From a virus: DNA of 42,224 bases. The translations under genes and the position numbers were made by a program. This document shows, in pieces, positions 2,884-40,154 of this stretch. The number at the start of each line of letters is the position of its first letter. Positions within the stretch are counted from its first letter, which is position 1. The notes beneath the pieces were generated by a model. It saw nothing but the letters and a program-made list of their open reading frames with translations, made no database searches and was not told the DNA's origin. The stretch spans positions 1-42,224 of IMG/VR virus record IMGVR_UViG_3300030107_004345; one strand, written 5' to 3'.

Positions 2884-3081
2884 ATGTACGATAATAATGT
2901 AATTAAATTGTTTCAAGCAATGGAAAAAGAGTTTGAAAAATGTATACCTGATACAGAGAAGTTTGTAGAAGGTAATAACTCTGCGGGAACGCGAGTTAGA
3001 AAATCTATGCAAATTGTTAAGGGTTTAGCTCAAGATATTAGAGTCGAAATTCAAAAACAAAAAAATGCCGTAGTTGCATAA
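2884..3081 (+). CDS. Histone H1-like DNA-binding protein (Hc1 family)
   Basis: This 65-residue protein has the hallmark of the bacterial Hc1-type histone H1-like family of Bacteroidota: GNNSAGTRVRKSMQIVKGL, corresponding to the family core GxxxAGTRxRK followed by a helix. The N-terminal part is an acidic/amphipathic helix, whereas cellular relatives often continue into a lysine-rich tail; here the tail is short (EIQKQKNAVVA). Family members bind and condense DNA. In a phage it could compact replicated DNA, alter host nucleoid structure or affect transcription. It is the last gene of the rightward unit, 10 bases after the barrel-like gene and directly before a hairpin terminator. Confidence 0.75.
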   Translation: MYDNNVIKLFQAMEKEFEKCIPDTEKFVEGNNSAGTRVRKSMQIVKGLAQDIRVEIQKQKNAVVA

Positions 3082-3085
3082 AATT

Positions 3086-3115
3086 AAAGGGAGCTTAATT
3101 GCTCCCTTTTTTTTT
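3086..3115. terminator. Intrinsic terminator between convergent units
   Basis: A nine-base-pair stem, AAAGGGAGC (3086-3094) and GCTCCCTTT (3101-3109), encloses the loop TTAATT. A run of T extends to 3115 on the plus strand, and the A run on the left gives U residues for minus-strand transcripts. It lies 5 bases after the histone-like gene and abuts the stop codon of the minus-strand metalloprotease-like gene, so it can end transcription from both sides. Confidence 0.85.
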
Positions 3116-8475: not shown

Positions 8476-8726
8476 GGCCAATCTATATTTATTTCTTTAG
8501 CATACTCTACCAACTCATCATATTTTACTTTATTAGTAACACCTGAATTATCATCTGGCGTTTCGCCATAATCTAAAGTATGTCCATCAGGATTTGTAGT
8601 AGATAATTCTTTATATTGATTTAGCTTATCTATAGTATCTTCTTTAACTCTTTCATATTCTAAATCACTCCATCCATAAGGGTTTGTTTGTGTAAAAGGT
8701 GTAAAACCTCGCATTTTAAAAGCCAT
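8472..8726 (-). CDS. Small protein with FKMRGFTPFTQ N-terminal motif
   Basis: The 84-residue soluble protein begins MAFKMRGFTPFTQTNPYGW; the remainder is acidic and helical (YERVKEDTIDKLNQYKEL, KYDELVEYAKEINIDWP). It has no signal peptide. The stop TGA overlaps the ATG of the T9SS-type gene (ATGA), and it starts 1 base after the thioredoxin-like gene's stop, so it belongs to the same coupled cluster. The N-terminal motif is shared with the metalloprotease-like protein and, in part, the 874-residue protein. That suggests a virion-associated role, but the family is unknown. Confidence 0.6.
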   Translation of the reverse strand: MAFKMRGFTPFTQTNPYGWSDLEYERVKEDTIDKLNQYKELSTTNPDGHTLDYGETPDDNSGVTNKVKYDELVEYAKEINIDWP

Positions 8727-8727
8727 A

Positions 8728-9093
8728 TTAAAAATCTTCCATTAATTGCTCATCTATTTCTTCTTGCACCTCTTCCCTTGTAGCTAACATCTTAAAACTC
8801 AAATCAGCTTGAAATCTAACAACTTCTTCCCCGTCTTTAAATATAATAATGGTAGGCACAACCACAACACTGTGTTTTTTTTGGGCTTTTGGATTTTCAC
8901 CTATATCCACATAAGACACCTTACAGTCTGTTAGTTGTTTAGAAGTGCACCACTCAACGTTATTAGCAATATTCCATTTAGCATTATATTGAACAACTTC
9001 TACTTGTCCAAAAACTGAACTACCAAACAACATAAACACTATGATTAGTAAATACATGCTGAATAGTTTCCAAGTTATATTTGAATTTTTCAT
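8728..9093 (-). CDS. Membrane-anchored or secreted thioredoxin-fold protein without CXXC
   Basis: The 121-residue protein has a hydrophobic N-terminal segment (about residues 9-29, ending SSVFGQ) that is a signal peptide or anchor. The mature part follows the thioredoxin plan. VVQYNAKWN matches the strand before the usual WCGPC, SYVDIGENP matches the second strand, and VVVVPTIIIFKDGEEVVRF contains the cis-proline (P80) and edge strands. Where WCGPC should be, the sequence is WNIAN (W40-N44), so the redox cysteines are absent; other cysteines (C49, C57) are not in a CXXC. A dithiol-oxidoreductase function is therefore unlikely. It could be a periplasmic binding or chaperone-like protein. The ATG overlaps the preceding gene's stop (positions 9090-9093). 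Confidence 0.65.
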   Translation of the reverse strand: MKNSNITWKLFSMYLLIIVFMLFGSSVFGQVEVVQYNAKWNIANNVEWCTSKQLTDCKVSYVDIGENPKAQKKHSVVVVPTIIIFKDGEEVVRFQADLSFKMLATREEVQEEIDEQLMEDF

Positions 9094-9468: not shown

Positions 9469-12400
9469 TTATTTTATATCATTGTGTAAATAACAACCCG
9501 ATTTTACCATCTTTCCATTTTCCTCATGATAGTTGTTGGTTTCTATCTTACACGTACCACCTCTAGTCTTCTGTGCTCCACAAGTATAATTTTTAGATTG
9601 GTCTGGATCGTGGTAGCTACAGAAGTCCCCAGGATTCTGCACTAAAACTTTACATTGTTTACCATTTTTAAAGTTAGAACATTTAACCTCTTTCTTAGGT
9701 TTACCTTCTTCTTCTCTTTTGTTGGCTTCTATTAACTGTTCTTTCACAGTTGTATTTATATGCTCTTCTTCGTCTTTTTGGTCTTTTAAATTTTCTTTTT
9801 CTTTTTCTTTAGTCTTCTTTAATGCGTCCTTTATTTCATTAGCAACTTTCTTGGATTCGCTGTCAATACCTAAGTCGTAAGTGTTCCAACCTAAGAACAG
9901 TGCTAATTCTTGCCAGAAAGCAAGTTCCATACCCTCTTCTGTTCCATCAGAGTTTTTATACGCCTTTGCAATAATACTGTTTATAGCTGTCTCAACATTA
10001 ACAGTTTTTTGATATAGTCTACTTGTAGGTATATTTGTGAAGGCTTCTATTAAAGAAGCTGTAACCGCCCACTCTGGATTATGTGGATCATACCACTTCA
10101 TCTCATCTATAGCATCACCATATATTTGCTTCGTCTTTATAGCGCTGTATATTTTTCTAAGTTTACTACCTATACTAGGTGACATATTTGCAAATGCTAA
10201 TATCGTATATGTGTGATCAGCGTTCCAACCTTTTTCTTCTTGAATGTTATATGTTATAACACCATTTTTCATAGTGGCTGTGACTACACCACCGAAGCCC
10301 ATACCATTAAGAAGATTATCGATCATACCTTGTACTAGTTTATCTTCTTTCTTTCTCCACTCATCATCTTCCGCATCTAAAGACGCAAATACAGCTTGTT
10401 GTAAAAATGTAAATAAGAAACTCTGTACAACACCATACCAAGCTATATTAGCTATTTCTGCCTTAAAATCACCTTGGCACTTGTATATCTTTTTAAACGA
10501 TAGGTTTATCTCCCTAACATATTGCATAGGTGTGTTTTTGAACGCAAATATAATTTTACCTAAATCTTCATTTTGAAGATTAGATGTCATGTGTTCTTCA
10601 CCTGATTGCTGGTTTCTTTGTGTGGCTTTCACAAAATCTTTATATGCCATACGTTTAGCATCTTCCTGGGTATAACCTTCTTTTAGATAATAATCTATTT
10701 GGTTTAAATAATAAGGTGTACCTCCTAAAAGTATAGCTGTAGCATCAGCTATTTTTGTTGGCGCTATACCTAAGTTAACTAAGTGCGATATTAAAGCCTT
10801 AAATGGATCGCTACTATTTACTATTCTAGCTATATCTTTTTCATTTATACCCATCATGTTACCAAACAATCTTGTTTGAATAAACTCTGAGCGGTATAAT
10901 TCCATCATTCCATTGAAAAATTTCTTTGGATTAGCAAATTGTGCTGCTGCTTTAACAATAGTGTTGTTTTCCATGTCTATGTAGTTAAACGTAGAAAGCA
11001 ACTGTAACGTAGCAGAACGCATATTGGTAAACATAATTGCACCAACTGAGTTGTTTATCCATCTCATAAAATTATTAACCAATCCATCTGTAGTTTTAGA
11101 ACCTTTTCTATAACCATTCTCCATTCTAAACAATATCTTCTCCAGATTGTTTCTAACAGCTGGTCCAAATCTAGCTTCTATGTCTATTAAGTTTTGAGGT
11201 GAAAACAATTCATTTTTCATCTCTATAAAAGGTCCCAGATAATCTTCCCTACCATCAAACTGATGTGCTCTATGCATATCAGTAAGTAAATTGCCAGCTA
11301 GCCAATTTTCAGAAGGCCTAACATATTGATTACCCTTTAAACCGATAACACCAGGCATAGCGTTAGCAAACAGTCTTAATTGCTCGTTACTCTTAACAGC
11401 ATCTGTCAATAACTTTATATCACCGGATGATAAACCGTATTGTGTCATGTCAATACCCATTATCTCGCTCCATATATAAACTCTAACAGCTTGCTCATGA
11501 GTTAATTTTGATCCCGGTACTTTCTTCTTTAATATCTTACGGATTTTAGGCATCATTTTCTTAAGGTCTTTATACCTTTTACCCATTTCAACTCTAGCCT
11601 TATTCAAGCTACTCATGCCATTAACATAAGTGTCTATAAATTCTTCAAAACGTTCTCTAGTTACCTCGTGTTGTCTACCTCTAGGAATAAAATTTTCAAG
11701 TAGACCTCTTAAATCCTGAGCATTTGGTGGTAACATAAATTTAAACCAACCTTTTCTTTTACCAGTTATTTTAGCATTAACTTCTGAGTATTTTTTAAAA
11801 CTAGGTATGCCAGTAACCTCCTCCATAAGATCTCTTAACCAGTTTTCTTTGTCAAACTCCCATTTATCATCTTTTACTATAACTGATTTACCACCGTCCT
11901 TTATAACACCAGGAGGATATAGTTTCATTCTATCACCCACGGCTTGTACATTTTCAGGCATGTCGTCAACAAAATATATATCATTAACACCATTAAATAT
12001 TAGATTGTCTTCTATCCAATCAGCCTTTGCCTCGCCAGTACTATCGCCTAAACCTACTATATTTTCCCTTAACATATGTGGAACGTTAGTTCCGTTCTCT
12101 TCGTTATACTTGTCTATTTCTTTATTTATAAAATCAAACAAAGCTTCTTGCACTTCAGGTGCTCTAGCTGTTAATATGTATACATTTGCTGGTCCATACT
12201 TTATAAGTTGGTTTATTAGTTTAGGCCATAAAGGACCTAAAATACCATTTGTTATATTGTTAAAGTCAGAAAAATCCATTTCCCAACCTTGTTGTATTAA
12301 TGTTAATCCTTCTTCTGCCCATTGAACACCATCCAGTTCTTTTCTAGCACCATCTTTAGTAGCTATAACAACATTGTCACTTTCGCCAACTGTTCCATCA

Positions 12401-15400
12401 AAATCAAATACACTTGCTCCTAAATCTGGAAGCGTAAGTTCTAAAGAATTTTTTATAATAGTATTTCTTTTATTTTGCCTTACAGATCTTTTTGATGACT
12501 CGTTGTTAATATTCTCAACATTTCTAGACACCTCATAATCTATAGCGTTTTCTTTTGGATTATTTTTAAAATCTAAATTATAAATATTTTTTTGATCTGA
12601 AACTGGTAGGCCTTCTTCTATTCTTTGAAGATTTTTATTGCTAGTGTTACCAAGATTTTTATCCATCTTGTCCATAGTTTTCTTATCGCCTAATAGTTGA
12701 GTATGATACCTAAGTATTTCTGCTATTTCAGCGTCTAAATCTATGGTATTATCTACGCTAATAACATTACCGTTTTCATCAAATTTTACATAACGACACA
12801 TTAACTCGGCTATCTTTAACATAGTGTTGCTGTTAACCCCCACATGTTCACCTTTAGCATTATAAGATAACTCTCCATCTTTTAATTCCAAAAAGTCTAA
12901 CCTTGATAAACCTCTAAAACCAGATATTAATCCAGTTTGTATTTGTAAGAAATGAAAAGCGCTAATTGGGCTTACATTACCGTTAGCAACATTATCAAGA
13001 AGGGTTTTTGTTATGTGTGTAGCGAGTTGAATATTAGCTTCATTTGCAGATTGTATTTCAGCGCCGTGTTTAGCCATTATTAAATCGTACTTTTCTTTAG
13101 CCGTCCCAGGTCCTTTTTGTATTTTATCGATAGATTTGAATAATTTGAAGTTTTTATTCATAAGTCTAATAGCCTCTAACTTTATATTAGTAGGAATACT
13201 AGAGGCTGCCACTCTAGCTTTTAACTCTTCTAATTTTCTAAAGTAATCACCCTCAACAGGGTTGCCATTATGGTCAAACAACTGTACTTGTTTTGTTTTA
13301 TCCGTGAACTTCTTACTAGCTGGATCCATAACCCTTAAGCTATAACCGAACCCAGCGTAACCTATCACACCCATTATTTCAGGGCCTAACGAAACTATTA
13401 GATTAGACATGTCTTCGTGTAATCGGTCTAACACCTCATTGTTGTTTCTTAAAACCCCATCTTGTTTATAAAGATCTTTTAAGAAGTCAGGTATAACTTT
13501 ACTTTCTTTAATACCTTGTTTAAACCTTACAGAACTACCACTTTCTACTATACCTCTATTATAAGCATCTACATAATTAGCTACCTCAAACGTGGTAAAA
13601 TCATTTTCTTTACCTATAACAGTCATAGTTGATCTGTTTATAACGTTATCGATATCATCATCTAGTACTAGACTATGTATTTTGGATATTTGTTGTTCAA
13701 ATAGTTTTTTGTTAAAATCTGGTGGGGCTTGATAAATAACACCCTCTATGTCCATTTTTAAGTTAGGATTTCTGTCTATTATTTGGCTTATTTTACTAAT
13801 ATGGTTTTCAAGATTAGGTGGCATAGCTTCCATTACAGCGTCTAAACCTAGTTCTTTCGCTATAGAATCTACTAGAGCTTTGTATTGAGTGTCTGAGTAC
13901 TGACCTTTGTTGTTTCTCTTATGTATCCCATTCTCATCTGGCTTGCCTTTAACGAAAAAGTCAACAAAATTATCGATGTTAACGTCATAATCCTTAACCC
14001 ATATTGTATTACCACCTTTTGTATCAGTAACCCAAGCGCCAGGTGTTTCAACTTGAGCTTTATGGGATTCGTCTACGCTCATTCTACCACCATCGTTAGA
14101 CATTATAGGAAAGCTAGATCTATATTTCACGGCAAGGTAGTCTATCAAAGCTTCTTTTACAGTAATCTTTTGCCCGTCTATTATAACTTCACTTCTTAAC
14201 CAAGCATCAAACTTACCAGAGGCTTGAGTTCCTATTATAGCTCTTATTCTTACTTTAAAAGCTTCTGCGAAATACTTCTGCATTTCGTTTCTCCATTTCT
14301 TAGAACCCTCAGGGATACCTAATTCTCGCATTATCTCTCTAACCTCTTCAATCACCTGTTGTTTCATCTCATCTGTGATGCCCAATATTTGAGACCATTT
14401 TCCTAGCTCTATATCTATACTTGATTCTAACTCCACGTCTTCAGGTTCAACAATTTGCTCGGGAATTACAGGCCCCGCTGGACCTGGATCTGGCCTAACC
14501 ATAGCCCCTTCAAAAGGAAGGTGTCTTTCTGCTATTTCTTTTACTCTGTCTGGTAAAATAGAGAATATATAACCAGAAAGCGGAACTGGATTTACTTGAG
14601 CAATCGGGCCAAAGTTTTTTGTTACGTAGGTTTGTACGTCCATTACATCTTTGCCTTTTAATTGATCTATTTTCTCCCCATTTATTCTAACCCATCCTTT
14701 TTTACTAAATAACACCTTTACGGTAGAACCGTCTTCTAGTACGTAATCAGCACTTCTAGAGTCAAAATTTTGTATTAACGTATATAAACCTCTTTTCTTT
14801 TCAGAGTCAATTCTAAGCTCTTCAAATATAATGTCTTTATGTAAACTAAAGTCTGGCACATAAGAGTAAACATTTATAAGTCCTCTAAGATAACTGTTGT
14901 AGCTTTCCATAATTTCCCAAGTACCAGCAATACCCTTGTCTCTATATATTTGATCCGCTATAGTAACATTGGGTGTTCTATCGTCTTTTGTTAGCTCGGC
15001 ATCGTTTTTGACTTTTTTCTTTGTTTCGTTTTTTAGATCTTTTATTACCTTAGCTGATTTTATAGCGTCAAGGTCTGCCTGTGTAAGTGTTCCATCTTTT
15101 ATTTTATGACCTAATCCTATTAAAAAGTCTAATATATTATCAGCTCCAGAAAAATCAAACTCCGTGAATTTTCCATCTGTAGACTCCTTCATACCGAAGT
15201 TCATTAAAGCTTGTAACGCACCTAAAAACCCTCTGTTTTCCGGTTTGCTTTTTATCCAATCGTTATTTTCCCCTCTCTTAAATTTTTGAGTTCCTCCACC
15301 TGGAATCCTCATTTCAACAAGTTTATCTACGTTACCCTTAGCAACCTCCTCAAAAAACTTCATAACAACTTCTTCCGGTGCGTAATTTGGATGTCCTTTT

Positions 15401-18400
15401 TGTTGTATACCTGGGTTCATACCAAATATTTTCCAGTATAAACCTTTGGTTCCCTCACCATAATTATCAACAACCCATTGATATATAGCCTGTGCCATTG
15501 GGCCAAACTCTTCTGGATTTAAATTTAAAGTAACCCAAAAAGCAGCATGTCCTTCCTCGTGAGTTCTTGTTTCTGTTTTACCGTTCTCAGCTTGATTACG
15601 GAAAAAGTCAAACGTTGTTACTTTACCATCCACGGGAGACTTAAACGTAGTCCCATTTTGTGTCCCGTCTTTAATATTTGAAATAAGTCTACTTTCTTCA
15701 GCTTTTAGTTGATCCTTAATTTCATTAAACTTGTCTTTATTCTCTTTATCTTTATATTTCTTTTTTAGCTTTTTTAGTTCTTTTTTAAAGAAATCTTTAA
15801 CAAGTTGAACACCGTCCTTTTTACTTCTTGCAAATAAACTATCGTAAACATCTTTAGTAATATTACGCTTAACAAAGTAATCCGCTTCGATTAAATCCAT
15901 GTTTTTAAGTATGGCAGCTTCTTCGTTTATTTGTTTTTGCGTTGGGTTTTTTACACCCTGCTCTTTTAGACTTCTTTTAGCTCTTTTCTTTAAATCAGCT
16001 ATTTCAGATTGGTTTTCTTTAGCATTACCCTCTACAAATAATCTACCAACATCCCCAAGATGTGTTTCACTTCTAAACACAGTGGCAGCATCTTGAAGCA
16101 TATTAAACTCTACTTTTAATACTTCTAATAGTTTTTGTTTGTCATCTAAAGATAACTTTGTGTTATTATATATGTTTGTAGCTTCTTCTTGTATTTCCCA
16201 AAGTCTTCTTAAGGTTTTTGTATAATGTCGTCTACCTGCTATAGTTAGTTTTTCATAATTAGCCTCAGCCTCGTTAACTAAAACGCTTAGATCTGTATCT
16301 ATTTCATTTAAGGTTTTCTTTAAACCATCATACTCCTGTTGTTCTTTTGGATTTAAAACTTTACCATTTTTTATTAAGTTATCATACTGCTTTATCTCCA
16401 GTCTAACACTATGTGATTGTTCAAGTTTGGCTCTAATATTCTTTTTTAATTCAGGATTTACGCTGTGTGATTTATACGCGTTTACAGCTAGTGGCACGCC
16501 AAAAAATATAGTAGACACAAAAGTACTACCACCTAACGTCTCTAACGTCTCGTCGCTATTAGCAAATCTACCTTGATCTATAAGTGTTTGCGCGTTTGTT
16601 GTGAATAGTTCACCTACATTCTGCTGAAGAACTACTTTACCATACTCAAGCGCTCCGTGTGTTAATTTTTGAGTTTTAGTTAGATAAACAAATTCGTTTG
16701 GTATATTGTCAAGTTTTCCGGTTATCTTGCTCCTAGTAAGCATTTTTTGTAGCTTATTAATGCCAGGTATTTTAAATAGTTCCCCACAAAATTCAGCAAG
16801 AGCATATCCCGTAGCTTTTAGATATAACTCTCCTTGGTGTAAGTCTGGATTGACTAATAGTTGATCTGCTTTCCAAGTACCACCAACAGATAGACTAGTA
16901 CCACCCATAGCTAGTAGAGCCGGTACAGTTCCAGCTCCACCAGTAGCTACAGACACAGCAACAACCACTAAGATATGTGGAGCTGCCTCAGCTAAAGCAG
17001 AAAATCCAGCTTCTAAAAAGTCCAACACGTCGTTATCTTCTGTTGTGAATGATTTTAGATATTGATTAGATTTTATAGCTTTTTTATAACTACTATATTC
17101 TTTAAAAAGTATACCATCTCCGCCAGCTAAACGATCAACCCAACCAAAACTAAATTCCATTAACCCCGTAAATATATCTAATGTGGCAAAACCTAGATTA
17201 GTAAGAATATTAGTTACAGCATTATAATCAATTAAAGCTAGATCTATAATGTAATCTAAACTCTGTAGTTGATTATATGCAAAGTTTTCTTTTTCGGATA
17301 ATAATGCTATTTCCTTTTCTAATCTTTGAATCGTTGTAACGTCTGATAAAAACTTATTTTGAATCCTTACCGGTATTTCTTTTCTTACTGTTCCTATATC
17401 TCCCTCAAAATCTATTTCTAATATAACGGTCTCTTCACCTGGTATTATTTCAAAGGTAGCGTCTGGATCTTGGAAAGTGTTTACATAGTGCATAACATCT
17501 TTCATTAACACACCCTTCTGGTTCATAAGAGTAAACCTACAAGATTGATAATCAACAACTCTATCTCTCCAGTAGTCATCAGCTACAGCTTCCCCAAAGT
17601 GAGCTATATCTTCAGCGTCACCTCTAGTAAACCAACCACCAGTTTCATCATCGTACTCGTTCATGTTATGCTTGTGGTACTCGTACGTAAGCTCTTGTTT
17701 AGCTATTAATACGGCTACTTCTAAAACATAATCATCCCATGGTATCTCTTCTGTTTGTGCCCATCCATTCTCATTTGGAGTGTGTCTTATAAAACTATTA
17801 GTTTCTTTGTTATAGTCAATAGTACCCTTATCGATCATGTCCTGTAAAAGCTTTTCCGCTTGTGGCACGGCATTTGGATATTCCGCGTCTACAGTCTTCC
17901 AGTAACCTTCGTATCCAGGAATAGTTGTTGTAATACCAAATTCATCTGTCATGGTTCTTGATGGCCTTCCATCAACATATATCCTTCTTTTTTTGACATC
18001 TTCTACATCAATAGCATCAACATTTTCTTGTTGGTCGTCGCTAAGCTCTACAATCTCATTATATGTGTTTTCCCAATCTGCTATTGAAGAGTCCATTTTT
18101 TGCTGCCAACTGTTTCCTATATCATCAGTTGTTATATTTTCTCTAAGAAACTTCATAAATCTATCAAAGTGCTCTTGCTTTTCGCTAGACGTCATATCTT
18201 TCCATCCTACCCAACCACCTTCACCACCGACAATAAGATTAAATTCCGCACCTGTACCTCTATGTGTGAATTTAAGCACATCAAATAAACCGCCAACAGC
18301 AAACTGACCTACCTCGTCCAGATCATCTTGCATGTTATGTTGAGTTATATAAAATATATCTCCAAAAGGAGTGTCCTCAAACACCTCTTCTCCGTCTTCT

Positions 18401-19821
18401 TCGCTGTACTCAAATATTTTATAGTTTCTCTTGTAGCTTTTCGTAGGGATATAACCTTCCTCTTCAGGAAGACGTCCATTTTCATCTTTAATAAGCTCTA
18501 CACTAAAGAACATATCTAAAAAAGGAACCTCATGATCTTCCATTGCTTCTTCTGCTATAGAAACTTCTTTCATAGGTACTATACCAAACATACCGTCTCT
18601 TGTTATATAACCCGGGTGTACACCACCAACTAAAGACATGTATTTTTTTATCTCAAGCTCACTTAATCCCTGATTAAATTCATTATGTAGTTTAGCTCGA
18701 TATATACTCTCTAATAATCGTTTCTCACCGTCAAGTTTTTTCTCGAAAGATGGATCGTATTTTAGTTTTTCTATTAACTCGTCACGTACATCCTCTCCGT
18801 TTAAGAAATCATAATATAAATCATATACCTCCTCTGCTTGCCATCTCTCAACAAAGTTAAACTTTTTCATAAAGAAGTCTATTAGATCCTTTTTAAAATC
18901 TTTTTTATGGGATAAGTGATAACGAGAATTATTAGCGTCTATCGCACCATCAGGCATTTTTCCGTGATTACCTTTTGTTTCATATTCCCTAACCAAACCA
19001 CCTTTTCCATCGTCAACATATAATAGGTTACCCACTTTAGTAAACTGTCTAAAGCCCTCAGGTACCTCTTCTCCAATAAGTTTTAGATTTAGCTCGTTGG
19101 GAGCTGTTCTTCCAGTTAAATCCCCTTCTAAAAAGTCCTCAAAACCGTTTAGTAAAAATTCACCCGTTGTAGAGAGATCTACATTGTAACTATTAGCGCC
19201 TTGTATTTTTCCATCTTTTTCGTTTACAATATTTAAATCAAAAGCCCAAGCCGTCTCATCAAATGCCATTTCGTTTTTATAAATATCATCTAATTGAGTT
19301 CTTGTTTTTTCCCAACTACTTGCTAATACTATATCATCTTTAGTGTAGTTAAAGGCTGGTAAGTTTTCAACTTCTCTTCTAAAACCATCGATATTATATT
19401 CCGGGTAATGTTGTATAAGTGTATTCGGTACAGTTTCAAACGTAGGATTGTAATTAATATCAAACTGTTCTCTATCTGAGTTTCGTACTCCAGAGTTTCT
19501 CTCGTGTACTATATTTTTAACCTGGCCGTCAAAGTCTCCAAATCCGCTTAAAGAAACTTGGCTTGACAACACGGGATCAAATGAAGTTAACACATGTGGA
19601 TTGGTTTTTTCACTTTCTATAAGAACCTCATCTATCTCAATGTGAGGTATCTTGTCATTCTCAATGACAGCGGGGTGAACATTATTAGCTTTCCATTCAG
19701 CTATAACGTTAGCGTAATCTTGCTCTGTATAAGCGCCGTTTTCCCCTGATCCCTGTGGATTGGGATCATCTTTCATTGCTTGAATTATCTTTTCTAGCTC
19801 TTTCTCTTCTGCTACAATCAT
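9469..19821 (-). CDS. Giant 3450-residue multidomain (polyvalent-type) late protein with peptidase, HAD and zinc-finger motifs
   Basis: This 10.35-kb uninterrupted gene is about a quarter of the window. The N-terminal ~900 residues are acidic and mostly soluble. Hydrophobic Ala/Gly/Val-rich segments lie near residues 950-978. A metallopeptidase motif THEEGHAAFW (H1421, E1422, H1425) has a candidate third ligand near E1484. A HAD-phosphatase-like module shows FDFDGT (D2473, D2475), LTAR (T2551) and FVDDMPENV (D2619, D2620). Residues about 2925-3095 contain MRSATLQLLSTFNYI, a segment I associate with large phage polyvalent proteins. The C-terminus has two C-x8/9-C-x10/18-C-x2-H units (C3381 to H3446). 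Position after the tail and ejection genes suggests it is carried in the virion and delivered into the host with DNA, as proposed for polyvalent proteins. The ATG overlaps the previous stop by one base. Confidence 0.75.
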   Translation of the reverse strand: MIVAEEKELEKIIQAMKDDPNPQGSGENGAYTEQDYANVIAEWKANNVHPAVIENDKIPHIEIDEVLIESEKTNPHVLTSFDPVLSSQVSLSGFGDFDGQVKNIVHERNSGVRNSDREQFDINYNPTFETVPNTLIQHYPEYNIDGFRREVENLPAFNYTKDDIVLASSWEKTRTQLDDIYKNEMAFDETAWAFDLNIVNEKDGKIQGANSYNVDLSTTGEFLLNGFEDFLEGDLTGRTAPNELNLKLIGEEVPEGFRQFTKVGNLLYVDDGKGGLVREYETKGNHGKMPDGAIDANNSRYHLSHKKDFKKDLIDFFMKKFNFVERWQAEEVYDLYYDFLNGEDVRDELIEKLKYDPSFEKKLDGEKRLLESIYRAKLHNEFNQGLSELEIKKYMSLVGGVHPGYITRDGMFGIVPMKEVSIAEEAMEDHEVPFLDMFFSVELIKDENGRLPEEEGYIPTKSYKRNYKIFEYSEEDGEEVFEDTPFGDIFYITQHNMQDDLDEVGQFAVGGLFDVLKFTHRGTGAEFNLIVGGEGGWVGWKDMTSSEKQEHFDRFMKFLRENITTDDIGNSWQQKMDSSIADWENTYNEIVELSDDQQENVDAIDVEDVKKRRIYVDGRPSRTMTDEFGITTTIPGYEGYWKTVDAEYPNAVPQAEKLLQDMIDKGTIDYNKETNSFIRHTPNENGWAQTEEIPWDDYVLEVAVLIAKQELTYEYHKHNMNEYDDETGGWFTRGDAEDIAHFGEAVADDYWRDRVVDYQSCRFTLMNQKGVLMKDVMHYVNTFQDPDATFEIIPGEETVILEIDFEGDIGTVRKEIPVRIQNKFLSDVTTIQRLEKEIALLSEKENFAYNQLQSLDYIIDLALIDYNAVTNILTNLGFATLDIFTGLMEFSFGWVDRLAGGDGILFKEYSSYKKAIKSNQYLKSFTTEDNDVLDFLEAGFSALAEAAPHILVVVAVSVATGGAGTVPALLAMGGTSLSVGGTWKADQLLVNPDLHQGELYLKATGYALAEFCGELFKIPGINKLQKMLTRSKITGKLDNIPNEFVYLTKTQKLTHGALEYGKVVLQQNVGELFTTNAQTLIDQGRFANSDETLETLGGSTFVSTIFFGVPLAVNAYKSHSVNPELKKNIRAKLEQSHSVRLEIKQYDNLIKNGKVLNPKEQQEYDGLKKTLNEIDTDLSVLVNEAEANYEKLTIAGRRHYTKTLRRLWEIQEEATNIYNNTKLSLDDKQKLLEVLKVEFNMLQDAATVFRSETHLGDVGRLFVEGNAKENQSEIADLKKRAKRSLKEQGVKNPTQKQINEEAAILKNMDLIEADYFVKRNITKDVYDSLFARSKKDGVQLVKDFFKKELKKLKKKYKDKENKDKFNEIKDQLKAEESRLISNIKDGTQNGTTFKSPVDGKVTTFDFFRNQAENGKTETRTHEEGHAAFWVTLNLNPEEFGPMAQAIYQWVVDNYGEGTKGLYWKIFGMNPGIQQKGHPNYAPEEVVMKFFEEVAKGNVDKLVEMRIPGGGTQKFKRGENNDWIKSKPENRGFLGALQALMNFGMKESTDGKFTEFDFSGADNILDFLIGLGHKIKDGTLTQADLDAIKSAKVIKDLKNETKKKVKNDAELTKDDRTPNVTIADQIYRDKGIAGTWEIMESYNSYLRGLINVYSYVPDFSLHKDIIFEELRIDSEKKRGLYTLIQNFDSRSADYVLEDGSTVKVLFSKKGWVRINGEKIDQLKGKDVMDVQTYVTKNFGPIAQVNPVPLSGYIFSILPDRVKEIAERHLPFEGAMVRPDPGPAGPVIPEQIVEPEDVELESSIDIELGKWSQILGITDEMKQQVIEEVREIMRELGIPEGSKKWRNEMQKYFAEAFKVRIRAIIGTQASGKFDAWLRSEVIIDGQKITVKEALIDYLAVKYRSSFPIMSNDGGRMSVDESHKAQVETPGAWVTDTKGGNTIWVKDYDVNIDNFVDFFVKGKPDENGIHKRNNKGQYSDTQYKALVDSIAKELGLDAVMEAMPPNLENHISKISQIIDRNPNLKMDIEGVIYQAPPDFNKKLFEQQISKIHSLVLDDDIDNVINRSTMTVIGKENDFTTFEVANYVDAYNRGIVESGSSVRFKQGIKESKVIPDFLKDLYKQDGVLRNNNEVLDRLHEDMSNLIVSLGPEIMGVIGYAGFGYSLRVMDPASKKFTDKTKQVQLFDHNGNPVEGDYFRKLEELKARVAASSIPTNIKLEAIRLMNKNFKLFKSIDKIQKGPGTAKEKYDLIMAKHGAEIQSANEANIQLATHITKTLLDNVANGNVSPISAFHFLQIQTGLISGFRGLSRLDFLELKDGELSYNAKGEHVGVNSNTMLKIAELMCRYVKFDENGNVISVDNTIDLDAEIAEILRYHTQLLGDKKTMDKMDKNLGNTSNKNLQRIEEGLPVSDQKNIYNLDFKNNPKENAIDYEVSRNVENINNESSKRSVRQNKRNTIIKNSLELTLPDLGASVFDFDGTVGESDNVVIATKDGARKELDGVQWAEEGLTLIQQGWEMDFSDFNNITNGILGPLWPKLINQLIKYGPANVYILTARAPEVQEALFDFINKEIDKYNEENGTNVPHMLRENIVGLGDSTGEAKADWIEDNLIFNGVNDIYFVDDMPENVQAVGDRMKLYPPGVIKDGGKSVIVKDDKWEFDKENWLRDLMEEVTGIPSFKKYSEVNAKITGKRKGWFKFMLPPNAQDLRGLLENFIPRGRQHEVTRERFEEFIDTYVNGMSSLNKARVEMGKRYKDLKKMMPKIRKILKKKVPGSKLTHEQAVRVYIWSEIMGIDMTQYGLSSGDIKLLTDAVKSNEQLRLFANAMPGVIGLKGNQYVRPSENWLAGNLLTDMHRAHQFDGREDYLGPFIEMKNELFSPQNLIDIEARFGPAVRNNLEKILFRMENGYRKGSKTTDGLVNNFMRWINNSVGAIMFTNMRSATLQLLSTFNYIDMENNTIVKAAAQFANPKKFFNGMMELYRSEFIQTRLFGNMMGINEKDIARIVNSSDPFKALISHLVNLGIAPTKIADATAILLGGTPYYLNQIDYYLKEGYTQEDAKRMAYKDFVKATQRNQQSGEEHMTSNLQNEDLGKIIFAFKNTPMQYVREINLSFKKIYKCQGDFKAEIANIAWYGVVQSFLFTFLQQAVFASLDAEDDEWRKKEDKLVQGMIDNLLNGMGFGGVVTATMKNGVITYNIQEEKGWNADHTYTILAFANMSPSIGSKLRKIYSAIKTKQIYGDAIDEMKWYDPHNPEWAVTASLIEAFTNIPTSRLYQKTVNVETAINSIIAKAYKNSDGTEEGMELAFWQELALFLGWNTYDLGIDSESKKVANEIKDALKKTKEKEKENLKDQKDEEEHINTTVKEQLIEANKREEEGKPKKEVKCSNFKNGKQCKVLVQNPGDFCSYHDPDQSKNYTCGAQKTRGGTCKIETNNYHEENGKMVKSGCYLHNDIK

Positions 19822-22445
19822 TATGATAGTTTGTTAATTATTTCAGCAGCACTCATAGCCGCAGGATTTTCAGTTAGATCTACCTTTGGAACAGATCTCA
19901 TGTGAGCCTCGTTTAGTTTGTAAGCATAATAACCTATAACTTCGTTAATAACTCTTTCCGCGTCAAAATCATTGCTTTCTGGATGCATCCAAGTACCAGC
20001 GTTTGGAGGTAAAGAATCGTATAAAGACTCTCCGTAAAACTGATCAAACATTCCAGATAAAGCGGTGTTTATATTATTACCAAATATTTGTTTAGCTATT
20101 CCTAGATTTTTCTTTTCATTTACAGGTTTACCAGCTATAGCATCCTGTTCATTGATAGCTAAAAAGTCTAGAAAGCTTTTCTTAGCAATAAAGTCTATAG
20201 AGAAAGTGGAACCTATTTCATTTAGTCTCACGGCCGGTGAGTTACCTAATTTTACAGCTAGAGAACCATCCTCCATAACATCTATAACTGGAGAAATATC
20301 ATCTGATAAATCAGAAGACATGAAAAATAAATTGTCTCTCATGGCACTTATTTTATGATTACCAAGAGACATAGTTGGTGCCCCAGAGAGTTCACCTTCT
20401 CCACCACCCATTGCAACGGTCCATGCTTGATATTTAGCTGGCACCTCAACCGTTGCTTGTTGTATAAAGTTTTGAAAAGAAGTATCTATTTTAGCTTGCG
20501 TTTCCTTGTCTTTGTTTTTTATCGCCGCTACTTTTCCTTCTTTAACTTTTTCTAAAAACTTTGTAAAGTTACCAATGGTTGCCCCAGAAAACAGTTTTTT
20601 AGCTTTATCACCTGGAATCCATTTTTCAAAATTAAAAGTAGCTAGCTTAGTATCTATTTCAGCGTGTATCTTTTTCCATATATTCCATAGTTCATTTTCT
20701 GAATTAACCCCGGCTCCTTCTCCAACCTCTACTGTTGGCAACTGACCGCCTTCAACTGGTGGTTCTTCACCGCTGACATCTTGTTTCATTGGCGAATTTA
20801 ATTGATCAGGCGCAATAGTTACATGTGATGGCATCCACGTGTCTCTCGAAACAATTTTATTATCTTGAATATTTTGTTCAAATGGAGATCTAAACTTTTG
20901 GCTTTCATTAACTAAGTATTCCTTAACACGTTTATCTAATGGCGAATCCTGCTCCATTTCCATTGGACCGTCTCCTATGTTTGGTATATAGTTCGCTCTA
21001 GCTTTAGTCTTATTTTGATAGGATTGTATTTCTTTAAATATTCTTTGAAGCTTTTCTTTTTCTTTACGTGTAATTTTTAAGCTCCCGTGTCCTTTAATGC
21101 AAAATTCCTCACCGCCGTTTGGATTAGTCAAACATCCATCGTGTTCTCCAGATTCAAAATCCGCGAGAAAATTACCAACACTACCCCTGTATTTATCATA
21201 CATTTCCAACAACGGTTGCATTATTTTTTGCTCGTTTTCTTGCTCTAATCTTTCGTCTTCTACCTGTGTTTTGCTTTTTGCTGCCCCTTTTTTAACCACG
21301 TTTTTGATAACGTGAATTTTATCACCAACAGTTTGGGTAATATATTTTGGAGTACCATCCTTGTATTTCTCGTTGTATGGAGATTTAAGTTTACCTTTTT
21401 TGTTTATATATTTATTATCTTTTATATTGTCGATATTATAACCGTTTTTCATACCAACTTTATGTTGGAATTTTTTGGTTTGAACCATCATACCGTTTTC
21501 TTGTTCTTCCCACTCAGAAGAACTTTCTAGGTTTACAACACCACCCCTAACGCTAACACCAGTTGTACCAACTTGAGCAAATCCATTTTCCGTCTTCACG
21601 ATTTTACCACCGTCATAAGAGTAGTTTTGTCCATTATATGTTGAACCTTCCGATCTAACACTACTAGGTCCAGAGGTTTTTATATTTAAAACGTCTCCAA
21701 CATTTGCATTTGCAAATTGCTCGCTATTTAACATTTCAGAAGCGTTGCTATAAGGATTTCCTTCTGATCCTATTACGTTTGCAGTTCCATCTCCACCATC
21801 AGTACCTTCTGTGTTTGGACCTGGCTCTGGTTCTGGCTCCGGCTCTGGCTCTGACTCTGATTCTGGCTCTGGTTCACAATCACACGTTTCGTCATTCCAA
21901 ACCCATCCAGGTCCATAGTCTCCGGCAGCACACATTTGTTGTTCTTCTTGAGTATCTGGACATTTGTCTGTATCATCATCGATGCCTTCAGGACAATCTT
22001 CCCAAAAACATGTAGAATAACATGGGTGGCTCTCGTCATTTTTTGCATCTTTGTCCTTACCACAACAGTCGCACTCGCCATCAAACTCTTCGTCTTCGTC
22101 AGTTTTACACTCTTCGTAACACGGATCATTGAATAAATAATTTTCCTCACAATCACATTTAGACTCTTCTTTATTCTTTTTATCTTTATCTGTATCTTTA
22201 TCTTTTAATACACACTTACCATCTTTCAACTCGTAACCTTCAGGACATTTCCCCTTAGAGGAATCCTCCATTTTCTTGTTGAATTGATTAAGTAATGGAT
22301 CCATTGCAGATTTAACATCCCAAGTACCAGCGGTAAGAGAACTTTCACCACCGTAGTTGTAACCTTGTGACCCGTGTTTAGCCTGCTTAAAAGGTGTTAT
22401 CTTTGTAACACCACCTAATATTTTCTTTAAATTATCTTCTGCCAT
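19821..22445 (-). CDS. Cys-rich, acidic internal/ejection-type virion protein
   Basis: The 874-residue protein lacks a signal peptide. The first 25 residues include KITPFKQAK. Residues about 65-190 are strongly Cys- and Asp/Glu-rich with pairs such as CDCEE, CDCCG and CDCEPE, consistent with metal-binding or reduced-cysteine modules. A Glu-Pro/Glu-Ser linker follows (about 190-209), then a Gly/Ser beta-rich part, then a mostly helical C-terminal half. Further motifs SPLDK, KFRSPFEQN and LNSPMKQD lie in the middle. Between the 228-residue ejection-like gene and the giant gene, it is probably a cargo or ejection protein of a podovirus-type particle. The 9-base gap to the upstream gene and TAATG overlap with the next gene suggest one coupled unit. 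No known family is recognised. Confidence 0.6.
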   Translation of the reverse strand: MAEDNLKKILGGVTKITPFKQAKHGSQGYNYGGESSLTAGTWDVKSAMDPLLNQFNKKMEDSSKGKCPEGYELKDGKCVLKDKDTDKDKKNKEESKCDCEENYLFNDPCYEECKTDEDEEFDGECDCCGKDKDAKNDESHPCYSTCFWEDCPEGIDDDTDKCPDTQEEQQMCAAGDYGPGWVWNDETCDCEPEPESESEPEPEPEPEPGPNTEGTDGGDGTANVIGSEGNPYSNASEMLNSEQFANANVGDVLNIKTSGPSSVRSEGSTYNGQNYSYDGGKIVKTENGFAQVGTTGVSVRGGVVNLESSSEWEEQENGMMVQTKKFQHKVGMKNGYNIDNIKDNKYINKKGKLKSPYNEKYKDGTPKYITQTVGDKIHVIKNVVKKGAAKSKTQVEDERLEQENEQKIMQPLLEMYDKYRGSVGNFLADFESGEHDGCLTNPNGGEEFCIKGHGSLKITRKEKEKLQRIFKEIQSYQNKTKARANYIPNIGDGPMEMEQDSPLDKRVKEYLVNESQKFRSPFEQNIQDNKIVSRDTWMPSHVTIAPDQLNSPMKQDVSGEEPPVEGGQLPTVEVGEGAGVNSENELWNIWKKIHAEIDTKLATFNFEKWIPGDKAKKLFSGATIGNFTKFLEKVKEGKVAAIKNKDKETQAKIDTSFQNFIQQATVEVPAKYQAWTVAMGGGEGELSGAPTMSLGNHKISAMRDNLFFMSSDLSDDISPVIDVMEDGSLAVKLGNSPAVRLNEIGSTFSIDFIAKKSFLDFLAINEQDAIAGKPVNEKKNLGIAKQIFGNNINTALSGMFDQFYGESLYDSLPPNAGTWMHPESNDFDAERVINEVIGYYAYKLNEAHMRSVPKVDLTENPAAMSAAEIINKLS
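21820..21876 (-). repeat. Hexanucleotide-type tandem repeat encoding Glu-Pro/Glu-Ser linker
   Basis: On the plus strand, GGCTCT/GGTTCT/GACTCT-like hexamers run in tandem for about 57 bases, encoding EPEPESESEPEPEPEPEPG in the 874-residue protein. Such repeats can change in copy number by slippage, which would alter linker length without breaking the frame. Confidence 0.8.
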
Positions 22446-22453: not shown

Positions 22454-23140
22454 TTATTTATTCCATTGGAATTGATCCGCTCCAAACTCTGATCCGGGAT
22501 GTTTCATGTTATCCCAGAAACCACCTTGTCCACCTGTCATTCCTTTTCCTATAGCTCCACCTACTCCGCCCATTATAGTACCTATACCAGCGGAAACTTG
22601 ATCTCTAGCCGCTTGTCTCGCAGCGTCTGCTTCAGAACGTCTAGTTTGAGCCATACCAAGTAAACTTGATACTTTACTTCTTTCCATTTGTTGACTCATA
22701 TACTGCCCTTTACCTTGTAGTTGTTGTACTTGAGCCTCGCCCTGTGCCATTAATTTTTGATTTGTGGCTTCTTGTAAACCTATACTAGCAGCTGACTTTT
22801 GAGTAGCTAATTGTCCTTGATTTGCCAAAGCTTGAGCCATACTAGCAACTCCAGATCCTCCTGCCGCTTGATTCATTCCAGACATGATATTGGCTTGGTT
22901 TTGAGCGTTCTGTTGTGCCATAAATTCAGCTTGCTGTGTGTTTACAGTTAAGTCTTCATAAGTATTTTCTAGGTTAGCGTATGGATTACTAGTATCCAAT
23001 CCTTCAAACGCAGCTTTACGCTTAGCTAACTCCATATTAGCTTGACGTTGTTCTTCTTTTCTTTTTCTAGAACCAGCAAGGGCCATTCCTATTTGCGTAG
23101 CTCCTCCTACTACCGCTACTCCTAACATTACAAAACTCAT
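22454..23140 (-). CDS. DNA-ejection / internal virion protein (T7 gp14-like organisation)
   Basis: The 228-residue protein begins with a Gly/Ala-rich hydrophobic helix (MSFVMLGVAVVGGATQIGMALAG). A basic RKRKEEQRQ stretch follows, then a long Gln/Ala-rich helical region (AEFMAQQNAQNQAN, MAQALANQGQLATQ, QVQQLQGKGQYMSQQMER). A second Gly-rich hydrophobic segment (SAGIGTIMGGVGGAIGKGM) lies near the C-terminus. This layout matches short-tailed phage internal/ejection proteins that leave the particle and help form a conduit across the inner membrane. It sits between the cupin-like gene and the 874- and 3450-residue cargo candidates. A direct family match was not possible. Confidence 0.65.
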   Translation of the reverse strand: MSFVMLGVAVVGGATQIGMALAGSRKRKEEQRQANMELAKRKAAFEGLDTSNPYANLENTYEDLTVNTQQAEFMAQQNAQNQANIMSGMNQAAGGSGVASMAQALANQGQLATQKSAASIGLQEATNQKLMAQGEAQVQQLQGKGQYMSQQMERSKVSSLLGMAQTRRSEADAARQAARDQVSAGIGTIMGGVGGAIGKGMTGGQGGFWDNMKHPGSEFGADQFQWNK

Positions 23141-35124: not shown

Positions 35125-36582
35125 TTAGTTCATTAACATGAAGTTATTAGCACCTTGTACAATTAAACATCTTTCAGATAAGTAATGTACTTCCATCGCA
35201 TCAAGATCAGATGTAGTAGCTCCAACAGAACCAGTAGTCCATGTTTTTAACTTTCTATCATCAGTTTGAGATGCTCTGTATCTAACGTGTAAGAAAGGTC
35301 TCTTAAGGTTTTTACCTAAGTTTTGATCATACACAGAAGAAACTCCAGCTGGAATCATAACCCCTCTGATAGCACCAACAGTGTTCTCAGCGTTGATTAA
35401 TCCTCTAGTAGCACTATCGTTTAAGTATTTCCAGTCAGATTTGTAGAAGTCATAAGAACCTCTTCTGAAACCAGAGAAACCTAAGTTAAGTGCCATGTCT
35501 TCTTCGTTGTCAAATACACCGTAAGAAGTACCGCCAGAACCGTAAGAGTTCATTGAAGCTAACATGTCATCTATCGCTAAAGCAGTAGATCTGTTTAAGA
35601 ACATCATGTTCTCCTCAATAGCTCCATTCTTATCGAATTCAGCTAGGATTAAATCGAACTCAGCTAAATCAGTAGCAGCGTTAACACCAGTTACACCAGT
35701 AGTTTCGTTACCTCTAGCTTCGATTGCAGCGAATAAACCTTCAGTACCTGTAATAGCACCAGAAGTACCACCAGCAGATAAAGCAGCTAAGTCAGTAAGA
35801 CCATCACCAGTAGCTTTTTCTGATTCAATCATTGCCATTTCTAAATAATCAGTAAATCTAGATCTAGTATCACCTTCAGCTTTTAAGTACCAAAGATATC
35901 CACTTTGTCCATCTTCACCAGAAACTTCAACCCAACCAATTTGAGAAGCGTCAGATCCTGAGATCTCATACTTATCTTTTAATATGATTGGCTTATTGTC
36001 GTAAGACTTGAAGTTTGGTTTGTTAGCTCCGTCTCTACCTGTACCACCTTTAGAGTATTCAGAACCAAATACTAGAACTTTAACAGAACCGTTTGCGATA
36101 CCAGCAGCAGTCATAGTTGCAGCTCCATAAGGTTGAATAGAAGCTGTACCATCAGCAGCTACAGCTGAAACATAAGCTTTAACTGTTTTATCAGCGTCAG
36201 CTACTAATAACATATCTCCAGCTCTCATACCGTGATGACCCGTAGTCATTGGAGCCGTAGTAGCTACAGCTTGACCATCAGCGTCGTGAGTTGCTACTAA
36301 AGTTAAACCATTTGTACCTGCTAACGTACATTTGTACGATAAGTGCAGTCTTGATTGCTCAGACCAAACAACTTGGTCAGAAGTCATAGACTCTTCAGCC
36401 CCAACTTGCGATAAGAATCCTGAAATAGTTCTGTTTCCAAAAATCTCAGCTTCTTTCTCCATTAGGTCTGGTAAATATTGTTGTGCCCAGTCGTTACCAG
36501 CACCAGTAAAATCGATGTAAGCCGAAGCTAACGTTTGTTTAGTAGGTGCAGCAGCTGGCGTCACGTTTGAAGTAATTGCCAT
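35125..36582 (-). CDS. Major capsid protein
   Basis: The 485-residue protein begins MAITSNVTPAAAPTKQTLAS and has a helical N-arm (LMEKEAEIFGNRTISGFLS), then mixed alpha/beta structure with loops rich in Gly/Ala. Its length, its position between an acidic scaffold-like gene and head-completion genes, and a strong terminator just after the stop all fit a major capsid protein of the HK97 fold, as in crAss-like phages (about 490 residues). Key conserved-looking segments are EISGSDASQIGWVEVSGEDG and WYLKAEGDTRSRFTDYLEMA. No protease cleavage site is evident from sequence alone. The high-expression role fits its own terminator and A/T-rich leader without Shine-Dalgarno. The family match is from pattern, not a search. 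Confidence 0.85.
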   Translation of the reverse strand: MAITSNVTPAAAPTKQTLASAYIDFTGAGNDWAQQYLPDLMEKEAEIFGNRTISGFLSQVGAEESMTSDQVVWSEQSRLHLSYKCTLAGTNGLTLVATHDADGQAVATTAPMTTGHHGMRAGDMLLVADADKTVKAYVSAVAADGTASIQPYGAATMTAAGIANGSVKVLVFGSEYSKGGTGRDGANKPNFKSYDNKPIILKDKYEISGSDASQIGWVEVSGEDGQSGYLWYLKAEGDTRSRFTDYLEMAMIESEKATGDGLTDLAALSAGGTSGAITGTEGLFAAIEARGNETTGVTGVNAATDLAEFDLILAEFDKNGAIEENMMFLNRSTALAIDDMLASMNSYGSGGTSYGVFDNEEDMALNLGFSGFRRGSYDFYKSDWKYLNDSATRGLINAENTVGAIRGVMIPAGVSSVYDQNLGKNLKRPFLHVRYRASQTDDRKLKTWTTGSVGATTSDLDAMEVHYLSERCLIVQGANNFMLMN

Positions 36583-37739: not shown

Positions 37740-40154
37740 TTATCTAGGATTAAAAGTGCTCATATCAATTCCTCCTCCTAGTATATCATTACCTGAGGAT
37801 TCAAAATTTTTAGGAGGTTTATCTTTTAATCTTTGATCAATCATCTCTGATTGCTGTGTTGCTTGTATCTTAGTTCTTTGATCTTTACGATCTTCTTTTT
37901 GAGTCTCTTTAGCCATTAATGTTTCAACCTCCATCTTCTTAAGCTGCATATTTATTTGGAACTCATGATCCATCAACTGTTTTTTAAGTTCAGCTTCTTG
38001 CATCATTTTTTGAGATTCCATTTGAGCTTCTATTTGCTTCATTTGAAGATCTGCTTGCATTTCTGCTTGTTTCTTTTGCATTTCCATTTGAGCTGCTTGT
38101 TGTTGAGCTTGCATGTTGGCCTGTGCCTGTGCTTGTATATTTTCTTGTTGTATTCTTTGGTCTTCTTCTACTTTCTTTTTTCTTCTAAGTTTTAAAAGTT
38201 GATTAGCTACTTTTAGATTTTTAACTTCTCTAATGTCGATAGCATCTGAAAGTTCTATACTTTGCTGCGCTAAAGCTACCTGAATATTTTGTTCTAACAT
38301 AGCTTGCTGTTCGTCGTCTGGGGCTAACTCTATGAATATTCCAAAATCATAAAGATGTAGTTGACTCATTTCATTTAGGGTTTCCATATTATGAACTCCA
38401 ACAGCTTGTATGAAAGCGCTTTTTGTTGGAGAATATTCTATAATATCAGATATTCTAAGTGATAATTGTTCAGCTATTTCTTGAGTTAAAAACAAACCAG
38501 CTTGTAATATATGTCTTGTAGCGGTGTTAGAATTTGCCGCTGCCATTTTTTGTACACCAACTAAAGAGTATTTTTCTGGCATACTACCATCGCTGGCTTC
38601 GTTTAGTCCGGTCACATCTCTTATCATTTGTAAATAATAATTGTATGTTTGAATTAAACTAGCCATTTTATTACCACCAGTTCCACTTGTAATTTCTTGA
38701 ATAGGAATTTTACCAGGGTTCATATCGCCTTCTTGTGTCAAAGATCTACCTATAATACTACCGGTTTGAAAGAACATGTTTAAAGCTTCTTGTGGATTGT
38801 AATTAGTACCATTGCCTAAATCTATTTCAGCGAGACCATCTGCGTCTAAATATATTCCATCTGGAACCATTCTAGACATAACTTGTTGCAATTTAAGATG
38901 CGTAAGTTGAATCATGTCTGCAAATCCAGTTATTCTACCAACTAAAGATTCTATTTTGTCGTTATAAATTCTAGGAGCGACTATACTATAGTTCATTTTA
39001 ACTTTAGTGTAATCACTTTTAGGACGTAACATATTTTTAGCTATTTCCCATCTAAGTAACTTATCTGTACCTAAAATCATAGCACCTTCATATAAAACCT
39101 CTAATTTTCTTGAAGTTTTTGAATATTCTCCATTTTTATCTTTTGGTGGGTCAAATGAATCATCTTTTTCTATAGCTTTATCAGCACCAGATGAAGTTTC
39201 CTTCATTTTATATACCTCAGAATTATATGTTTTATAATTAAAATATAATATATCTACTAAATTCTTGTCTTCAGTTGTTGAGCTAGTAGTTCTAAATCTT
39301 CTTCCAGTCGTTTGGTCCGTACATTTTTCTAACTCTTCTTCGGTTAAGTCTGGAAATTGTTTTACTAGCTCGTTAATTGGTATTTGTTTAACTTCTCCAA
39401 CATAATATATATCTTCAAAATAAGGAGATTTACTATAAGAATAAACTAGATTAGCTGGATCAACGTAATCAATAGTTACGCCCTCTGAGGTATTAAAACA
39501 TGTCTTTACGGCGCCAATCCCAAGAACAGCTAAATCATAATAAAATCTCTTTTTAATTAGCTCAAATCTATTTCCCTCAAACAAAGTGTTTATAGCTTGT
39601 TCTTCAGCTATTTCTACAGCCTGTTTATACGTTAATTGCATGAATAAATCTAGTTCCTCTTGTGTTTCTGGAATTTCATCTGGATTATTATCTGCTAAAG
39701 TAATACCTAACGTGTCCTCAACTAAAGCATTTATATCTTTAGTTAACATGTCTGACATTAAAGATTCTCTATAATCGCTTCTTTTACTCATCCCGTAAGG
39801 ATCTTGAGAAACAACTTTAATATCATACATCCTCTCTGCTATACCATTTACAATTATATCTACAAATTTAGGTATAATTGGAACTGGCTTCCAGTCTAAA
39901 TTAAGATATGATAAATCACCATTTATAGATAATTCGTCTTTATATTTTTGTATTGATTGTTCTCCTCTAGCGTATAGTCTTAACTTATGAAAGTCTGCGG
40001 ATCCATTTATGAATCTATTATCGCCAATGTTATTATCAAACCACTCGTTCTCAATAGCCCTAGCAACCTCTAATCCATACTTATGACTGGATTTTTCACT
40101 ATCACTAACAATTTGACTAGGAAAATTATTATGTCTTGAACTTAATTTATACAT
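37740..40154 (-). CDS. Portal protein (crAss-like)
   Basis: The 804-residue protein matches the long portal proteins of crAss-like phages. The N-terminal part has FHKLRLYARGEQSIQKYKDE and LSYLNLDWKPVPIIPKFVDI. The core contains YYDLAVLGIGAVKTCFNTSE and EDIYYVGEVKQIPINELVKQ. A helical crown/barrel part includes LRISDIIEYSP. The C-terminal ~140 residues form an unusually long Gln/Met/Lys-rich coiled coil (MQAQQQAAQMEMQKKQAEMQ and similar), ending GGGIDMSTFNPR. It forms the dodecameric ring for DNA entry and exit and docks the terminase. The gene lies 1 base after the terminase stop and is followed by the scaffold-like gene. Confidence 0.85.
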   Translation of the reverse strand: MYKLSSRHNNFPSQIVSDSEKSSHKYGLEVARAIENEWFDNNIGDNRFINGSADFHKLRLYARGEQSIQKYKDELSINGDLSYLNLDWKPVPIIPKFVDIIVNGIAERMYDIKVVSQDPYGMSKRSDYRESLMSDMLTKDINALVEDTLGITLADNNPDEIPETQEELDLFMQLTYKQAVEIAEEQAINTLFEGNRFELIKKRFYYDLAVLGIGAVKTCFNTSEGVTIDYVDPANLVYSYSKSPYFEDIYYVGEVKQIPINELVKQFPDLTEEELEKCTDQTTGRRFRTTSSTTEDKNLVDILYFNYKTYNSEVYKMKETSSGADKAIEKDDSFDPPKDKNGEYSKTSRKLEVLYEGAMILGTDKLLRWEIAKNMLRPKSDYTKVKMNYSIVAPRIYNDKIESLVGRITGFADMIQLTHLKLQQVMSRMVPDGIYLDADGLAEIDLGNGTNYNPQEALNMFFQTGSIIGRSLTQEGDMNPGKIPIQEITSGTGGNKMASLIQTYNYYLQMIRDVTGLNEASDGSMPEKYSLVGVQKMAAANSNTATRHILQAGLFLTQEIAEQLSLRISDIIEYSPTKSAFIQAVGVHNMETLNEMSQLHLYDFGIFIELAPDDEQQAMLEQNIQVALAQQSIELSDAIDIREVKNLKVANQLLKLRRKKKVEEDQRIQQENIQAQAQANMQAQQQAAQMEMQKKQAEMQADLQMKQIEAQMESQKMMQEAELKKQLMDHEFQINMQLKKMEVETLMAKETQKEDRKDQRTKIQATQQSEMIDQRLKDKPPKNFESSGNDILGGGIDMSTFNPR

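Follow-up and report, generated by a model that had tools for sequence, protein, structure and literature searches.

The window, i.e. the whole stretch of DNA analysed here (42,224 nt), is a 42.2-kb fragment from an uncultured virus. It carries a minus-strand morphogenesis operon in which one very large gene is found downstream of the terminase, portal and capsid genes (Table 1). Further virion proteins are also encoded upstream of this giant gene on the same strand.

Table 1. Features of the late operon and of the giant protein (positions in the window; residue numbers refer to the giant protein)
Feature	Position	Strand	Basis
Giant gene, 3450 aa	9469..19821	minus	Final gene of the minus-strand morphogenesis operon
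CCCH unit 2, residues 3414-3446	9484..9582	minus	Motif
CCCH unit 1, residues 3381-3404	9610..9681	minus	Motif
Conserved helical C-terminal core, residues about 2664-3345	9787..11832	minus	Alignment A2; all-helical model
HAD phosphatase domain, residues about 2465-2635 (D2473, D2475, T2551, K2599, D2619, D2620)	11917..12429	minus	Invariant residues, profile matches
Zincin-like metallopeptidase domain, residues about 1327-1500	15322..15843	minus	AlphaFold model, four invariant columns, family-wide presence
E1484, predicted to be the third ligand of zinc; next helix	15370..15372	minus	Invariance; helix in model
HEEGH, residues 1421-1425	15547..15561	minus	Motif, family conservation
Hydrophobic segment, residues 938-974	16900..17010	minus	Hydropathy scan
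Medium protein, 874 aa, upstream; N4 gp51-like by position only	19821..22445	minus	Synteny
Small A/Q-rich protein, 228 aa; anchor of the small-medium-giant module	22454..23140	minus	Profile matches
Major capsid protein (phrog_13704)	35125..36582	minus	PHROG match
P22/N4-type portal (phrog_6547)	37740..40154	minus	Profile match
Large terminase (phrog_6681)	40156..42009	minus	PHROG match

The plus strand of the window encodes a DUF1064 protein (141-605, E 2.1e-10) and a class II (B12-dependent) ribonucleotide reductase (589-2460) with a PF21995 insertion domain and a PF02867 barrel. Additional minus-strand genes code for a thioredoxin-fold protein of 121 aa with a hydrophobic stretch at its N-terminus (8728-9093) and for a predicted secreted protein of 688 aa (6415-8481). 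The latter contains repeats like GCTDSTAYNYDPSAN, spotted by eye, and ends in a stretch similar to the sorting tails of type IX secretion, with no match in NCBIfam or Pfam. A second HExxH protein (HEGEH, 335 aa) is located among the late genes at 3114-4121 on the minus strand and has no Pfam or NCBIfam match. No relatives of the 874-aa protein next to the giant gene were detected, not even at the syntenic position within the lineage; the adjoining 228-aa protein is conserved.

The giant gene starts with an ATG at position 19821 and contains no internal stop. A preliminary description of this DNA had reported a single uninterrupted reading frame for a 3450-residue protein, a HEEGH motif (H1421, E1422, H1425), a set of HAD residues (D2473, D2475, T2551, D2619, D2620) and two CCCH units at the C-terminus. 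The reading frame was borne out, on the minus strand, which had been left unstated, and all the listed residues were found in place. The CCCH units read C3381-x8-C3390-x10-C3401-x2-H3404 and C3414-x9-C3424-x18-C3443-x2-H3446. Two catalytic residues had been overlooked, namely E1484 of the peptidase and K2599, the motif III lysine of the HAD domain. The N-terminal half of the giant proteins is variable in sequence comparisons. Its hydrophobic segment, a possible site of membrane contact, is not conserved in most relatives. The C-terminal core shares about 35% identity across 13 relatives (alignment A2), and its predicted model is all-helical.

The window protein alone gave no match of useful significance in Pfam, PHROGs, NCBIfam or PDB sequences. 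A tblastn search with its first 2951 residues matched no annotated phage, and a single-sequence scan of viral contigs with the window protein returned no relatives, so that alignments were needed to reach them. Among the records of terminase relatives, 15 contained a giant, aligning chiefly from residue 2060 on. Alignments of the HAD domain and of the C-terminal core, used as queries for contig scans, led to at least 160 loci, with at least about 600 matching stretches in each scan. The sample consists of 129 distinct complete giants from viral contigs, taken from the alignment-scan matches listed and from the first set. The following counts refer to this sample, i.e. to giants among the matches listed. 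Their length ranges from 879 to 4058 aa (median 2856, n=129).

Exactly one HExxH motif is present in 127 of the 129 giants, where composition predicts 1.5 in total. In the remaining two (L143:2077-12181 and L255:4174-12172), the giant gene consists of two slightly overlapping ORFs in the contig; the break lies after the HExxH domain, and the motif is found within the upstream ORF. Sequencing error, decay or a real split could each account for these breaks. The HAD profile was found in 116/129 giants (39/50 in a subset fetched without HAD selection) and is absent without trace in 13. The HExxH motif is located 653-1255 residues upstream of the HAD domain. CCCH units follow the core in 49/129 giants. 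Chance motifs are ruled out by these family counts together with the invariant columns described below. The combination of domains, regarded as unusual in the preliminary description, is the normal arrangement in a large marine lineage, whose members universally have HExxH, frequently a HAD domain and in about 40% of cases CCCH units.

Judged by terminase or capsid, the nearest isolates are MW202828, the Flavobacterium elemo phages, Maribacter phage Panino and the Cellulophaga phages phi38:1 and phi18:3. In every one of them, the final gene of the module encodes a very large protein (1691-3859 aa). The small, medium and giant genes of phi18:3 (gp120, gp121, gp123) are annotated as structural from MS/MS. 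When the isolate records were searched with a profile of the 228-aa protein (97 members), the top matches coincided with the virion proteins found at the syntenic position in phi38:1, phi18:3, Panino and elemo. Their E-values range from 3.5e-8 to 2.4e-6, and a composition bias of 20-25 bits has to be allowed for. The small-medium-giant order is the same as that of gp52-gp51-gp50 in N4, and the giant occupies the last position, as is typical of the N4-type virion RNA polymerase. Neither BLAST nor the HAD and core profiles detected homology to the giants of elemo, phi38:1, phi18:3, Panino or MW202828. The isolate giants were therefore rejected as sequence homologues: the equivalence, also that of the MS/MS-detected phi18:3 gp123, is one of position and not of detectable sequence similarity. 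The MW202828 giant contains two HExxH motifs, HEFGH in both cases (residues 1615 and 2500), and its match to the core profile is not significant. Given the operon position and the small-medium-giant order, the giant is most likely a virion ejection protein. It would be packed in the podovirus head as the third member of the set and would leave the virion together with the DNA, as suggested by its gene position.

A HExxH motif in one protein is weak evidence by itself, as about 0.07 are expected from composition. In an alignment of 81 sequences, H1421, E1422, H1425 and E1484 are the sole invariant columns of the peptidase domain, and E1484 is likewise invariant in 128 segments. The surroundings of the motif are very diverse, with a mean column identity of 12% in the same alignment. 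In the AlphaFold model of residues 1195-1630 (mean pLDDT 80.9), strands precede the active helix, which carries HExxH, and E1484 belongs to a later helix (model residues 288-300). This is the layout of a zincin active site, in which a Glu from the following helix acts as third ligand of the zinc, the role predicted for E1484. Peptidase_M78 was matched by one relative (5.8e-5). A Foldseek search with the model, which has many long extra helices, gave no match at E<=0.001 in PDB or BFVD.

According to Iyer et al. 2017 (PMC5512222), polyvalent proteins of phages are encoded near virion genes, and their metallopeptidases have HEXXH and Glu on two consecutive helices. The helix arrangement of HExxH and E1484 in the window model is the same. 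In that paper, autoproteolysis is also proposed for these metallopeptidases. Because the peptidase is universal in the family, it would serve the giant protein itself: the predicted enzyme may process its own polypeptide during assembly or after entry and thereby release modules. A peptidase that instead cleaves host proteins after injection appears somewhat unlikely. Zincin effectors are known in conflict systems, this option is listed in the main text of PMC5512222, and the diverse surroundings of HExxH resemble those of an arms-race domain. However, every complete relative listed has the motif, at a fairly fixed distance from the HAD domain, and such universality and spacing fit a housekeeping function better than a swappable effector.

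In the HAD domain, D2473, D2475, T2477, T2551, K2599, D2619 and D2620 are invariant across 71 aligned sequences, i.e. motifs I-IV are represented by DxDxT, Thr, Lys and DD. Among 45 HAD segments, 42 match DUF2608, a member of the HAD clan (best 3.8e-6); phrog_415 'polynucleotide kinase' is matched by 37 (best 1.3e-8; 0.008 for the window) and PF12710 HAD by eight. In a DUF2608 search of the window record, none of the controls matched, so that this search carries no information. An hhalign comparison with the phage Pnkp phosphatase yielded E 1.5e-5 and a probability of 80% (mismatched control, E 0.6), and it brings the Lys of motif III and the DD motif into register. A Foldseek search of PDB with the model of HAD domain and core returned the HAD phosphatase 3n07 as top match (E 0.33); other HADs recur, none of them significantly. 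Searches of PDB sequences with the whole protein and with the HAD and peptidase profiles gave no usable match. A significant structural match, as foreseen in the preliminary description, was thus obtained for neither domain, and the fold assignment draws on sequence profiles, on residue invariance and on secondary-structure prediction.

In 6/129 giants among the matches listed, a P-loop domain is located shortly after motif I, i.e. inside the HAD domain. Zeta-toxin/AAA_33 families match 3/16 scanned giants and phrog_505 'polynucleotide kinase' matches 2/16. These similarities make the nested domain a zeta-toxin/polynucleotide-kinase-like candidate, hinting at nucleic-acid-end chemistry. The giant of L117 carries a non-kinase insert with no assigned family at the same insertion site (residues about 1451-1661). 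Since the HAD domain is absent without trace in some giants and accepts insertions in others, it is best read as an optional, insertion-tolerant effector module beside a universal peptidase. As a predicted phosphatase, it would have phosphorylated ends or nucleotides as targets once a new cell is infected; its dispensability and its insertion site point to such a role.

The HAD domain, sometimes with the nested P-loop kinase, could more specifically be an injected Pnkp-like end-healing enzyme for host tRNA or phage DNA whose ends result from cutting by host defences, with the CCCH units binding that nucleic acid. Of the roles suggested in the preliminary description (protection of incoming DNA, processing of host proteins, repair of nucleic-acid ends), the last receives indirect support from the 37/45 phrog_415 matches and the six nested P-loop domains. 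The phrog_415 and Pnkp matches and the nested P-loop domains agree with this, one CCCH unit passed the zf-TRM13_CCCH cut-off, and PKN-HAD phosphatases are known from phage RNA repair (PMC7824862). Nevertheless, it is an unlikely reading. No P-loop kinase was found in the window protein, and its HAD domain has LTAR and VDDMPEN in place of SGR and DDR of Pnkp. The PHROG names are transferred annotation, and a kinase of the zeta-toxin type is an equally good reading of the nested domain. RNA ligase PF09414 was found in 4/26 long relatives, none of them with a kinase insert, and PF09511 matched no sequence, controls included. With RNA ligase this scarce, a complete tRNA-repair pathway is not indicated and was rejected.

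The usual form of the CCCH units in relatives is C-x9-C-x10-C-x2-H, ending at most two residues from the C-terminus. Matches to DUF5763 and zf-primase are below the cut-off, and the one relative that passed the zf-TRM13_CCCH cut-off is that mentioned above. The units may provide zinc-stabilised contacts with nucleic acid or with the virion.

The giant might instead have a chiefly mechanical function in the ejection channel, comparable to that of T7 gp16 or of the N-terminal portion of N4 gp50, with enzyme domains that are relics or have only a regulatory role. This reading is quite unlikely: the conserved helical core and a position like that of the last ejection protein agree with it, as does N4 gp50 with its HExxH subdomain and helical domain of unknown role (PMC12633501), but in both domains the catalytic residues do not vary among dozens of divergent sequences, and relics would not keep such residues.

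The favoured reading, which we hold to be probable, is a polyvalent-type ejection (cargo) protein with an active zincin and an optional HAD phosphatase effector. In line with the preliminary description, the results support a late or virion protein of the polyvalent type, from a flavobacterial podovirus, that combines a metallopeptidase signature with a HAD domain and CCCH ends. Signatures of two unrelated enzymes with invariant catalytic residues, a metallopeptidase and a HAD domain, are combined in one very large polypeptide, and its gene lies among the virion genes. Very common marine phages of flavobacteria-like bacteria make such a protein of 2,000-4,000 residues, which is probably packed in the head and delivered with the DNA. 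More far-reaching, and improbable, is the proposal that virions of this abundant marine lineage pack a self-processing giant with a nucleic-acid 3'-phosphatase, sometimes a nested polynucleotide kinase, and CCCH units that grip nucleic acid. If true, end healing would reach the cell ahead of all phage gene expression and counter RNA- or DNA-cutting host defences from the first minute.

A defined and conserved architecture is now available for a protein that databases list as giant, structural and unknown, and that comes from one of the best-sampled groups of marine phages; this architecture sets the universal peptidase apart from optional effectors. Since the HAD domain of this probable injected protein tolerates the insertion of a P-loop kinase, repair of nucleic acids by virion-delivered enzymes becomes open to direct testing.

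A search of openly licensed papers returned no description of this giant-protein architecture. With the polyvalent proteins, as described in the main text of PMC5512222, the window giant has in common that a very large late protein joins unrelated enzyme domains, including a metallopeptidase of the type described above, and that its gene stands beside virion genes. It differs from them in that no Pfam match to a named polyvalent or LPD domain was found; across the window protein and 16 relatives, no named polyvalent-associated Pfam family was detected. A word search of the main text of PMC5512222 gave no phosphatase or haloacid term, and hence no mention of a HAD phosphatase as a regular component.

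The giants of the isolates, namely phi18:3 gp123, phi38:1 gp101 and the 3694-aa structural protein of elemo, occupy the same operon place after the same small protein and are virion proteins by record annotation (MS/MS for phi18:3). Those of phi18:3 and phi38:1, in contrast, are shorter and contain neither HExxH nor HAD. T4 polynucleotide kinase-phosphatase (pseT) shares the Asp-x-Asp nucleophile, the motif III Lys and the DD motif with the window HAD domain, and the relationship extends at profile level over motifs II-IV. The window protein, however, lacks the kinase and has LTAR as motif II, not SGR, and the P-loop of its relatives is nested inside the HAD domain, whereas that of pseT is N-terminal.

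N4 gp50 and the window giant are both about 3500 aa long, and in both cases three genes stand side by side, the giant coming last behind the genes of a small and a medium virion protein. Unlike N4 gp50, the window giant has no detected RNA polymerase domain: Pfam, PHROG and NCBIfam gave no match, and a short motif search returned isolated matches only. In short relatives, only about 520 residues precede HExxH. An hhalign comparison of the window family with N4-like HExxH domains aligned the active-site helix alone (probability 11-18%), and the helical cores do not align. With no polymerase profile match and with homology limited to the active-site helix, next to the match in position, an RNA polymerase relative of N4 gp50 was rejected. 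Both proteins nonetheless present HExxH and then Glu, followed by a large helical C-terminal region (PMC12633501). The invariant HExxH and Glu of the marine giants therefore offer a second system, beside N4 gp50, for the role of peptidase domains in ejected giants.
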